Shown here: one piece after another, positions 16,508 through 29,602 of the stretch | Layout: each line of letters starts with the position of its first letter | How positions within the stretch are numbered: the stretch's first letter is position 1 | Source: a virus | Virus record (IMG/VR): IMGVR_UViG_3300031851_000095 | Coordinates: 1-32,812 of that record | DNA length: 32,812 nucleotides | Reading direction: 5' to 3' (one strand) | Notes under the pieces: generated by a model | Databases searched by the model: none | What the model saw: only the letters and a program-made list of their open reading frames with translations | What the model was told of the DNA's origin: nothing | Program-made: the position numbers and the translations under genes

Positions 16508-17016
16508 GGGTTGCTACCATTTTGATATTGTGGGTTTGTGCCGGTCTTATAATCTTTCCCTTGAGATCAAGACATCCCGACGGCGCGGCTCACAACCTAC
16601 TTAGAGATCCCCAAATGATTCGAGAACTCCTAAAGCGCCAGGAAGGCTTGCGGCTGCATCCTTATCGCGACAACGGAAGCCTATCCATTGGCTTCGGTCG
16701 GAACCTAACGTCGCTAGGGATTACTGAAGCAGAAGCTGAAATGCTACTGGAAGCAGACATTGAGCGGGTCGAAGAAGAGATGGGCGCTTACGATTATTTT
16801 AGTGGCCTATCACCCGAGCGAAAGGCGGCAGTAATGTCTTTAGGTTATAACTTAGGGGCGACCCGGTATGCGTTATTTATTAATCACCATTCAGCGATGG
16901 CTAAAGGTGATTACGAGGAAGCGGCTAAAAACATCTACCCCGACTCCCTCTACGCAGAGCAAGTCCCAAACCGCGCCAAAGAAATCGCAGAGATACTCCT
17001 CACCAATGAAATATGA
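16504..17016 (+). CDS. T4-type endolysin (GH24) with N-terminal signal anchor
   Basis: This 170-residue muramidase starts at GTG 16504, overlapping the previous stop. Residues 1-20 form one hydrophobic segment (ATILILWVCAGLIIFPL), consistent with a signal-anchor-release or signal-peptide endolysin that uses the host Sec route. The catalytic region reads RQEGLRLHPYRD and NGSLSIGFGRNL, giving Glu47, Asp56 and Ser61 in place of the usual Glu-Asp-Thr triad, plus the conserved GYNLG motif (SLGYNLGA). ATG 16616 would yield a cytosolic form without the anchor. It hydrolyses the peptidoglycan glycan strand. Confidence 0.88.
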   Translation: MRVATILILWVCAGLIIFPLRSRHPDGAAHNLLRDPQMIRELLKRQEGLRLHPYRDNGSLSIGFGRNLTSLGITEAEAEMLLEADIERVEEEMGAYDYFSGLSPERKAAVMSLGYNLGATRYALFINHHSAMAKGDYEEAAKNIYPDSLYAEQVPNRAKEIAEILLTNEI

Positions 17017-17422
17017 GGTAGCGGCGACAGTCGACCGGATTATTGACGGCGACTCGATTGAAGTTACCTTATCGCTCGGCTGGTCGATGTACCACAAAAC
17101 GAGTATTCGCTTACATCATGTGGACACACCTGAAATGCGTGGTGGTACAGGCATCAGCAAGGCGGCTGCCCGGTTAGCAAAAGCTCACGTTGAAACACTC
17201 GTCCCGGTCGGATCTCAGATTGTCATCGACAGCAAGGAGCTCGACAAATTCGGTAGGGGTCTGGCGATAGTCACGAACGCTGAAGGCGTGAACGTTGGCG
17301 AGGATCTCATACAAAGAGGCCTTGCTGTGAGATACGAAGGCGGCAACAAAGCGGAGGTTGCTGCGGCTCATCAAAAGAATTACGAGCTGCTGCAAGCGCA
17401 AGGGCTGATCAGTGAAACTTAA
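17006..17422 (+). CDS. Staphylococcal-nuclease-like (thermonuclease) enzyme
   Basis: This 138-residue protein has the SNase fold signature: RIIDGDSIEV, IRLHHVDTPEMRGG (Arg35, Asp40, Glu43) and DKFGRGLAIV (Arg84), matching the catalytic Arg, Asp, Glu and second Arg. YEGGNKAEVAAAHQKNY fits the C-terminal helix. Its ATG lies 11 bp before the endolysin stop, so translation is coupled. No signal peptide is visible, so it would act in the cytoplasm or be released on lysis. Its place between endolysin and holin is unusual. Confidence 0.88.
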   Translation: MKYEVAATVDRIIDGDSIEVTLSLGWSMYHKTSIRLHHVDTPEMRGGTGISKAAARLAKAHVETLVPVGSQIVIDSKELDKFGRGLAIVTNAEGVNVGEDLIQRGLAVRYEGGNKAEVAAAHQKNYELLQAQGLISET

Positions 17423-21440: not shown

Positions 21441-21642
21441 TGCCAAGCACTAGATGTTGTGGTTTCGGGTGGATTTGACCTATAGGGCGAGCAGGGGTTT
21501 TCGTAAGTCATTGATTTTATTGATAACCTTCTGCTATTTCCGGTAATAGTAATTACCGGAATTAGTGGGAACCCCGGATTTTAGCCCCCCCTTCGCGAAA
21601 ATCGAGCGGGGTACAGGGATATACCCCCACAGAGAAACCGTC
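21441..21642. other. Structured non-coding segment upstream of the late genes
   Basis: These 202 bases hold no convincing gene. They contain three inverted repeats. The first is a perfect 24-bp element at 21538-21561, with 10-bp arms TTCCGGTAAT and ATTACCGGAA and a 4-nt loop. The second is GATTTT...AAAATC around a C-run (GCCCCCCC). The third is GGGGTA...TACCCC around 21615-21635. None is followed by a T-run, so terminators are unlikely. A packaging (cos) site, a late promoter/operator, or both are possible, since packaging genes follow. Confidence 0.6.
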
Positions 21643-22314
21643 ATGCATCCAGAGCTTCCCAGATCAGCCAAACTATCTCTCTCGGCTTATTCGGACATGT
21701 CTGGTCAGTTCGGTCATAAATTTGAAAATAAATTCACGAGTACGACCTTTTGGTGGATTGAGGGCGAGAAGGACTATCTGGTTTTCAAAGGTAGTGCGGA
21801 GCCCCGAGATTTTTTGGTAGATATTTTTGCATTTCCTCCGGTGCGTTATCTGAGGAACTGGGTTCATCCTGGGTTTGCAATAGCACATAAATCTATTAAG
21901 CCGCGACTGCTCAAAATTTTGCGGAAAATAAAATCTGAAAATAAGCAGTTAGTAATCACCGGGCATTCATTAGGTGCCGCCCAGGCTGAACTGACGCACT
22001 TACTGGCGTTGTCTTATGGGATAGATAGCACCGCTATTTGCTTTGGAAAGCCTCGCGTCTTTTTGAAGAGCTCTAAGAGCCGTTTTCCGAAAGGGTCGAT
22101 GTTATCGGTGGTCTCTGGGTCAGACATTGTCGCCAGGGTTCCCCGGTACTGTTACACGGTTGGCTGCAAGGACCAGGATTTTCTCTATTTGAGTAACCAT
22201 GACGATGTTTATTTGAACCCGGACATGGACTTTGTTGCTGATGATTTCTCTGTCTCTGACTCTATATCTGACCATTCAATGGAGGCCTACCTCCAACGTG
22301 TTGGTGGCTTATGA
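21643..22314 (+). CDS. Class-3 lipase family alpha/beta-hydrolase
   Basis: ATG 21643 follows AGAGA at good spacing; GTG 21565 would add 26 residues of non-conserved sequence. The 223-residue product contains the nucleophile elbow VITGHSLGAA (Ser109), FGKPRVF, the acid GSDIVARVPR (Asp161) and a C-terminal DHSMEAYL (His211), which together make the Ser-Asp-His triad of the Lipase_3 family. VHPGFAIA matches the strand before the lid. No signal peptide is seen. It lies just ahead of small structural-type genes and the terminase. A role in membrane damage, infection or lysis is inferred. Confidence 0.82.
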   Translation: MHPELPRSAKLSLSAYSDMSGQFGHKFENKFTSTTFWWIEGEKDYLVFKGSAEPRDFLVDIFAFPPVRYLRNWVHPGFAIAHKSIKPRLLKILRKIKSENKQLVITGHSLGAAQAELTHLLALSYGIDSTAICFGKPRVFLKSSKSRFPKGSMLSVVSGSDIVARVPRYCYTVGCKDQDFLYLSNHDDVYLNPDMDFVADDFSVSDSISDHSMEAYLQRVGGL

Positions 22315-28372: not shown

Positions 28373-29602
28373 ATGACTATAGTAGCAAACACGTTTACTT
28401 CTTTTGATGCGAAAGGCATTAGGGAAGATCTTAGTAATGTAATTTACAACATTGCTCCCGAGGAAACTCCTCTCCAAAGTAACATCAGCCAGCAAGAAGT
28501 CTCTAACACTCTCTTCGAGTGGCAGACCGATACTCTTGCGGCGGCTGACGCTACTAACCAGCAAATAGACGGTGACGATATTGCCGCCTTTACTGCTGTT
28601 GCTCCAACTGCTCGTGTACATAACTACACGAACATTTCTCGTAAGACCTTCATCATTGCTGACAACTTACGCTTTCAGGATCTCGCTGGTCGAAATTCTG
28701 AGATAGCTTATCAAGTCGTCAAGAACGGTAAAGAATTACGCAGAGATATGGAAGCTATCTTATGTGCAAACACAATTCCTACGGCTGGCGGTGCTGCTGC
28801 TGCTCGTAAGACAGGTGGTTTGTCTGCATGGTTAGCTACAAATTCTGTATCAAACACTGGTGGTGGCGTAGCGGGTGCGAACCCTGTACTCACTGCGGGT
28901 ATACCTACAACGGCCCAAACTGAAGGTACTAAACGTGCCTTTACTGAAACCCTTTTAAAAGAGGTTATCGAAAACGTTTGGACCAGCGGCGGTCAGCCTT
29001 CAATGATCATGGTTGGAGCATCGAACAAGCAAACCTTGTCGAGCTTCCCTGGCATTGCTGCTAATCGCTTCTCAATCAACAAGCCTGAGCAGGGCACAAT
29101 TATTGGCGCCGCCGATATTTACGTTATTCATTAGCGTCTTTATACAGGAATGTATAAATGTAATCTGTTGAATTCAAGGGAAGCCCAGAGATGGGTAATC
29201 TTGAGCGAAGCCCGAAAGGGAACGTGCAACGACTATTCCGAAAGGAAGTAGGATCAAGCGATCCGAAGCGGCAGACACCCAGACCGGGTGAAGACATAGT
29301 CTGAACAATACCGTATCTAATTAAAGGTATTGCTGCGAAAGCGGGGTTAGTTTAGCGAGCTAATCTGAACATATTGTAGTGATTTCGGCGAACTAACGGT
29401 TGTACCTAACAGGTTCTCTCCTAAGCGTGATGCTTATGTACTTGATACTGAATATCTCGGTGTTGGTATGTTGCGTCCAATGCAAACGGTTGACTTAGCG
29501 AAAACAGGCGACGCTGAAAAACGACTCCTGATCGCTGAGTATGGATTGATTGTTAAGAACGAAGCAGCTAGTGGTGCGGTCTTTGACCTAACACATACAT
29601 AG
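28373..29602 (+). CDS. Major capsid protein, split by a group I intron (join 28373..29124, 29377..29602)
   Basis: Exon 1 (752 nt) ends in the middle of a Val codon, GT; exon 2 starts with T. Joining them gives a 325-residue protein with an unbroken DIYVSDFGELTVVPNR at the junction, as in SU10/DUF5309-type capsids (also VVPNRFSPKRDAYVL and LAKTGDAEKRLLIAEY near the C-terminus). Without splicing, translation stops 8 bases into the intron after 253 residues, losing the last quarter of the coat protein. The N-terminal arm (TFTSFDAKGIREDLSNVIY) and HNYTNISRKTF also fit the HK97-fold family. Not a pseudogene: both exons keep the frame and conserved residues. Confidence 0.93.
29125..29376 (+). ncRNA. 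ORF-less group I intron, subgroup IA
   Basis: A 252-nt self-splicing intron interrupts the capsid gene. P1 pairs exon ACGU plus intron UA with UAGCGU (29132-29137), placing the U-G splice pair at 29124. P2 is UUUAUACA/UGUAUAAA with a GGAA loop. P3 is UCUGUUG (29164) with CGGCAGA (29269). P4 is CAAG (29175) with CUUG (29200). P5 and P6 hairpins follow. P7 is GACUA (29231) with UAGUC (29297). P7.1 (UUCC-GAAA-GGAA) and P7.2 (GGAUC-AAGC-GAUCC) mark subgroup IA. P8 is CACCC/GGGUG and P9 AAUACC/GGUAUU. The intron ends in G 29376. No endonuclease gene is present, so it cannot home on its own. Confidence 0.93.

Follow-up and report, generated by a model that had tools for sequence, protein, structure and literature searches.

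Endonuclease-free group I introns that appear to be spreading through a phage major capsid gene

The reading frame of the major capsid gene in the phage sequence analysed here stops after 253 amino acids (28373-29134), and codons for the rest of a capsid protein follow from 29377. A first-pass annotation placed a compact group I intron between the two parts. The locus raises two questions: is the interruption an intron that would be removed from the capsid mRNA, and how could an intron without an endonuclease have arrived in this gene?

The window, which is the whole 32,812-base IMG/VR contig, contains genes for an integrase, ERF, YqaJ, NinG/Rap, a lysozyme, an Sf6-type small terminase subunit and a large terminase, together with an SU10-type portal, a scaffold and an SU10-type major capsid protein. 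This gene content is that of a temperate tailed phage. Next to the lysozyme gene is an ORF resembling staphylococcal nuclease (16868-17422), and another, at 21565-22314, resembles class 3 lipases. In the relative L088, tail-fibre genes spanning ~3 kb separate the window's last gene from its first large gene; judged from this gene order, the window seems to have been opened within the tail genes, with a loss of just ~3 kb of genome sequence. Among sequenced bacterial genomes, capsid relatives reach no more than 57% identity across most of the gene and are scattered over phyla, so no host is named.

A predicted group I intron in the major capsid gene

The region 29115-29332 (+ strand, as are all window features below) matches the Rfam model RF00028 with 91.4 bits (gathering threshold 50, E 2e-22), and this is the sole Rfam match at the gathering threshold within the window. 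The covariance-model result agrees with the class proposed at first. The boundaries proposed with it, which define a 252-nt intron without an ORF at 29125-29376, also stand, because intronless alleles and related introns place them at the same bases.

The intron is inserted after the second base of capsid codon 251. Specifically, exon 1 (28373-29124) holds the first 250 codons plus two bases of the next, while exon 2 (29377-29602) runs from the last base of codon 251 to the stop codon TAG at 29600-29602. The unspliced frame adds I and H alone past V251 and then meets the TAG at 29132-29134, which starts at intron base 8, as the first-pass annotation had read it. Joined in silico, the exons encode 325 aa with the junction ADIYVSDFGE, which contains the previously expected peptide DIYVSDFG. 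The predicted spliced nucleotide junction is ...GATATTTACGT joined to TAGTGATTTCGG, and the predicted peptide over it is ADIYV followed by SDFGELTVVPNR. Pfam SU10_MCP (PF17236) matches the unspliced product with 194 bits over profile positions 4-220 of 292 and the spliced product with 294 bits over positions 4-292 of 292, so that the profile is matched to its end after splicing, consistent with the DUF5309-type C-terminus recognised earlier.

The conserved core P3-P4-P5-P6-P7-P8 is complete, with pairing in every helix. Covariation was evaluated over 49 core pairs in an alignment of 15 introns that includes the edges of their exons. The pairs are formed in 92.8% of cells, compared with 30-42% when the partners are slid, and double changes occupy 135 core cells, compared with 44 in shuffles; both values are far from those of the controls. 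P3 (29164-29170/29269-29275) is paired in 105/105 cells, with double changes at five of its seven pairs. P4 (29174-29179/29199-29204), which encloses P5 (29183-29187/29192-29196), is 98.9% paired and has four double-change pairs. P8 (29276-29280/29286-29290) is paired in 75/75 cells, and five of the six pairs of P7 (29231-29236/29296-29301), the guanosine-binding helix, are invariant in the 15 introns. P2 (29139-29145/29152-29158), P6 (29205-29206/29224-29225) and P6a (29211-29213/29218-29220) are positioned by the intron alignment. P9 (29306-29312/29326-29332) is paired in 105/105 cells with six double-change pairs, and is followed by P9.1 (29335-29336/29341-29342) and P9.2 (29345-29350/29360-29365; 42/42 cells in the s251 and s295 introns, for which see below). 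All the helices originally named from P1 to P9 are therefore present, although P6 has just 2 bp, and P9.1, P9.2 and P10 have to be added to them.

The splice sites have the expected features. P1 (29121-29137) is formed between exon bases ACGU (29121-29124) and guide bases GCGU (29134-29137), and includes the U29124-G29134 splice-site pair, correctly spotted at the outset. It is paired in 60/60 cells in the 15 introns, with double changes at three of four pairs. The U-G pair is found in 15/15 introns and the final G, here omegaG29376 at the 3' splice site, in 17/17. The P10 part of the guide (29128-29133) pairs with the 3' exon (29377-29382, UAGUGA) in a 6-bp run, and the s251 guide is thus matched to both exons. 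P7.1 (29237-29239/29244-29246) and P7.2 (29251-29255/29260-29264) are inserted between P7 and the 3' strand of P3, and are paired in 21/21 and 35/35 cells (56/56 together) across the seven s251 and s295 introns. We take these extra helices to be a feature of subgroup IA, as first suggested, an assignment that does not tell IA1 from IA2.

Taken together, the segment that interrupts the major capsid gene is almost certainly a group I intron of IA type that would splice itself out; its splicing is predicted from sequence, from which we also infer catalytic activity in vivo. In the pre-mRNA, P1 and P10 would line up both exons on the guide sequence. P7 would bind exogenous guanosine, which attacks after U29124; exon 1 would then attack after omegaG29376, giving a joined mRNA for the 325-aa capsid protein. 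The in-frame stop at intron base 8 would end translation ahead of the ribozyme core. The earliest in-frame stop lies 4-24 nt into the intron in 16/16 introns examined, which fits with early stops keeping ribosomes out of the ribozyme core, an interpretation based on general knowledge of phage introns.

Introns at other sites and in other capsid genes

Relatives were found by scanning IMG/VR with the spliced capsid protein. Their spliced proteins have 325 or 326 aa (L013 has Ns), and the intronless alleles are 95% (L002), 84% (L004), 78% (L005) and 74% (L007-L009) identical at the protein level. All insertions placed by cmscan are group I introns above the Rfam gathering score, and the introns of L417 and L421 were recognised through the intron motif and read by eye. 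Sites are named by the codon that precedes the intron, with s2 denoting insertion after codon 3. The capsid gene has seven intron sites: s2 (L012, L417), s24 (L003, L013, L017, L417), s55 (L010, L014, L015, L017), s82 (L014), a site near codon 113 (L421), s251 (window, L006, L012, L017, L085) and s295 (L011, L012, L015, L017, L085). L017 has four introns, the maximum in one gene, and is matched by two contigs from other samples, L018 and L019. Across the six aligned sites, the introns have no ORF and measure 244-271 nt. In L012 (4721-5000), a 271-nt intron follows capsid codon 3, and the first exon encodes three residues.

Each guide makes 4-5 bp with its own site and 1-3 bp with most other sites; for P1 of s251, the values are 4 bp and 1-2 bp. 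One guide is common to s2 and s24, and the s24 and s55 guides are one base apart (GATCC versus GAGCC). Two intron clades are starred in the tree, s2/s24/s55/s82 and s251/s295. Each spans more than one site, so related introns are spread over different positions within one gene. A recent jump between s24 and s55, at which similarity hints (the s24 intron of L003 is 88% similar to the s55 intron of L017, compared with 85% to its s24 intron), is not claimed, because a single s24 clade is not rejected by the tree (AU p 0.19).

The window intron is identical to that of L006 in 252/252 positions and to that of L017 in 251/252, although the spliced coding sequences of the window and L017 are 75.2% identical. 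An intron matched in 251 of 252 bases within a 75%-identical gene indicates a recent move, and lateral movement of this kind is, on the sequence comparison, very probable. The earlier question of how an ORF-less intron arrived is hereby sharpened to that of a recent transfer. Similarly, the s295 introns of L012 and L017 are 95.5% identical, compared with 75.4% for the exons; s24 and s55 are less telling, with introns at 85-87% and exons at 75%. As in mobile introns, alleles with and without the intron occur at one site together with lateral transfer, but no homing endonuclease is encoded in the intron.

The exon bases that flank polymorphic sites bear a footprint. L004, which has no intron, and L010, which has the s55 intron, differ at 16 of 975 coding positions, and three of these fall in the four exon bases immediately upstream of the intron. 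Between L004 and L012 (s2, s251 and s295) there are 46 differences; 12 of the 46 lie no more than 13 nt from one of the three polymorphic junctions. With L002/L003 pooled in, the five polymorphic junctions have 16 differences within 13 nt, compared with 2.5 expected (Poisson P ~1e-8 for a 13-nt window picked after inspection of the data), while the 13 junctions that are not polymorphic in the same pairs have three. At s55, s251 and s295, each of the 12 changes agrees with the intron-bearing L017, and all are synonymous by the codon table. Long co-conversion tracts around the introns were looked for, and none extends past ~15 nt. Because the footprint overlaps the exon bases of P1 and P10, it points to either co-transfer of a short exon stretch or selection for pairing. 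That near-identical alleles show donor-like changes simultaneously speaks for a short exon stretch having travelled with the intron, and the footprints suggest transfer at the DNA level. Which way each change went, to gain or to loss, is something that we infer; plus/minus pairs alone do not separate the two. Overall, ordinary group I introns appear to be actively spreading through the capsid gene, where few of them had been reported before.

A non-coding motif near the 3' end of first-clade introns was used to search IMG/VR, where it occurs in 36 stretches. Outside the window's clade, several of the matches fall in capsid genes of different PHROG families: phrog_1328 (L397, L398), phrog_3437 (L401), phrog_267 (L408) and phrog_9953 (L404); the phrog_1357 capsid of L122 was picked up by another motif. 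Other matches are in genes to which no name could be given, and several of these introns appear by eye to carry HNH-like ORFs. In a second motif sample, capsid ranks among the most frequent exon types: major head families have 4, 4, 4, 3, 3 and 2 members among 83 downstream fragments, a count that is indicative only since the families partly overlap and the fragments were chosen by length, and UvsX was matched in 7/87 upstream fragments. Capsid genes are a common, not exclusive, home of these introns. The top-80 lists favour unsplit genes, and the absence of introns there is therefore not used as evidence of rarity outside the clade.

Further intron-bearing loci were observed. A gene weakly matching phrog_1357 contains at least four group I introns within ~2.2 kb in L122 (9800-12992, - strand) and L132 (700-4200, - strand), and one of the L132 introns encodes a LAGLIDADG_2 protein. 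A distant SU10-type capsid gene (~43% identical) has three group I introns at other sites in L193 (1983-3700, + strand), with the same phage represented by L118, L172 and L197. SU10-type capsid loci with 1-4 group I introns nearby are found in L140 (2143-5385, +), L166 (161-2856, +), L194 (-) and L249 (3732-3963, +), the last being a bacterial MAG contig whose intron lies within a tyrosine codon adjoining s24. Of 83 intron-adjacent fragments, 16 matched the family phrog_11023 (named LAGLIDADG homing endonuclease), which may represent translated intron core, not a protein.

Routes of movement

The evidence points to an intron that has no endonuclease of its own and yet very probably moves over evolutionary time; the phages concerned have capsid genes ~25% apart. 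The route was probably at the DNA level, to judge from the footprints. Specifically, a break at the insertion site, presumably made by an endonuclease acting in trans, from a co-infecting phage for instance, would be repaired, with a short exon stretch carried along on either side. An endonuclease in trans is our tentative choice. Alternatively, the intron may have been moved by recombinases of the phage itself or by DNA recombination of another kind, which is possible but rather doubtful; the recombination genes ERF, YqaJ and NinG/Rap are present. An endonuclease within the phage was looked for with five Pfam families (HNH, HNH_3, GIY-YIG, LAGLIDADG_1 and LAGLIDADG_2), which have no match in the window or its relatives (all fragments), consistent with the earlier reading of an endonuclease-free intron with no ORF of recognisable role. 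A Pfam and PHROGs scan of the other ORFs returned recombination and lysis genes and no homing endonuclease. In other systems, phage introns without an ORF have been established to home in trans (PMC3984707). In such collaborative homing a separate endonuclease mobilises group I introns that, like ours, have no ORF (PMC3984707); here, no endonuclease was matched with the five Pfam families on fragment records.

Movement at the RNA level, in which the excised intron reverse-splices into capsid mRNA at guide-matching sites and is then copied to DNA and recombined, is unlikely. It would account for the multiple related introns and for the frequency of capsid hosts, as capsid mRNA is probably the most abundant late transcript; the two multi-site clades, the near-identical s24 and s55 guides and the presence of 3'-end-motif relatives in several capsid families agree with it. 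However, the donor-like exon bases beside the introns favour DNA transfer, and the s55 exon of L004 (ACATTA) mismatches the guide and would need a prior change. Moreover, the tree leaves recent site-to-site jumps unproven, s24 monophyly not being rejected, and a reverse transcriptase was neither sought nor seen. It is quite doubtful that the introns form a small endonuclease-free lineage specialised for capsid genes, in which guide changes open new sites and unrelated capsid families; such a lineage may possibly move at the RNA level, given abundant capsid mRNA, as has been proposed for introns of eukaryotic rDNA. There is a slim chance of a route other than a trans endonuclease, DNA recombination or reverse splicing.

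Vertical inheritance from a many-site ancestor, with precise losses by lineage, is very unlikely. Presence at the same sites is patchy over wide divergence, as losses would predict, and the s24 and s55 identities could still be explained in this way, but at s251 a near-identical intron beside 75% exon identity would demand an implausible constraint on loops and contradicts it. Still less probable is that splicing tunes capsid output to guanosine, temperature or growth state, or that the 253-aa product is functional. T4 intron splicing is reportedly tied to translation and growth state, going by the title of one paper cited in PMC3984707, and every intron has an early in-frame stop; against this, close relatives have no intron or have it elsewhere, the unspliced frame gains just two residues after V251, and no truncated product is conserved across sites. 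Finally, we give hardly any credence to a dead element or assembly artefact with a capsid ending at residue 253: the core is intact and covarying, the C-terminal capsid exon is conserved, and several contigs come from different samples.

Comparison with known capsid introns

The rarity of capsid introns implied by the first-pass annotation is partly wrong, because they have been published for LittleE, Tuc2009 and crAss-like phages and recur in IMG/VR. Capsid-gene group I introns are already known, and the window intron is another case. In the Cluster J mycobacteriophage LittleE, splicing of the major capsid intron was demonstrated by RT-PCR and N-terminal sequencing (PMC3706429). As in the window, the LittleE intron is of group I type, with U ending exon 1 and G ending the intron; other than that, ~820 bp are removed, a LAGLIDADG-like ORF is on the bottom strand, there is one intron and the phage is unrelated (PMC3706429). 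Phage BAKA has a 265-bp ORF-less intron in a virion gene with RT-PCR-confirmed splicing, but in a tail gene and at a single site (PMC3706429). The lactococcal phage Tuc2009, known here through its citation in PMC3706429, carries its group I intron in the gene of a capsid subunit and differs in phage and capsid family. According to PMC7886860, the MCP of a crAss-like phage (Zeta group) is in five fragments with several group I introns, which were recognised by their encoded endonuclease domains; the capsid and phage group are different, and junction polymorphism does not appear to be analysed there.

Similar intron cores are those of Klebsiella phage RCIP0089 (76% over 172 nt) and phage C72C1 (73% over 141 nt), the latter also in a major head gene but at another capsid site. 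In the C72C1 record (L082, OQ984150.1, 2998-4199), the major head protein is annotated as two CDS with three antisense hypotheticals between, and this annotation of an intron-split head gene is probably wrong.

Three things are new here: the density of introns, the signs that they moved recently and an intron subfamily, related to them, across several capsid families. A joint report of ORF-less introns at seven sites in one capsid gene, up to four sites occupied at once, presence/absence polymorphism among near-identical alleles and a near-identical intron in a gene diverged by 25% was not found in the open-access literature. In environmental phages, introns can split capsid genes, so that automatic annotation and surveys based on capsids may cut such genes short or overlook them. 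The alleles, with zero to four introns in a near-identical essential gene, are a natural series for measuring what group I introns cost, how efficiently they splice and how mobile they are, and with it the old question of how endonuclease-free introns keep spreading becomes testable.
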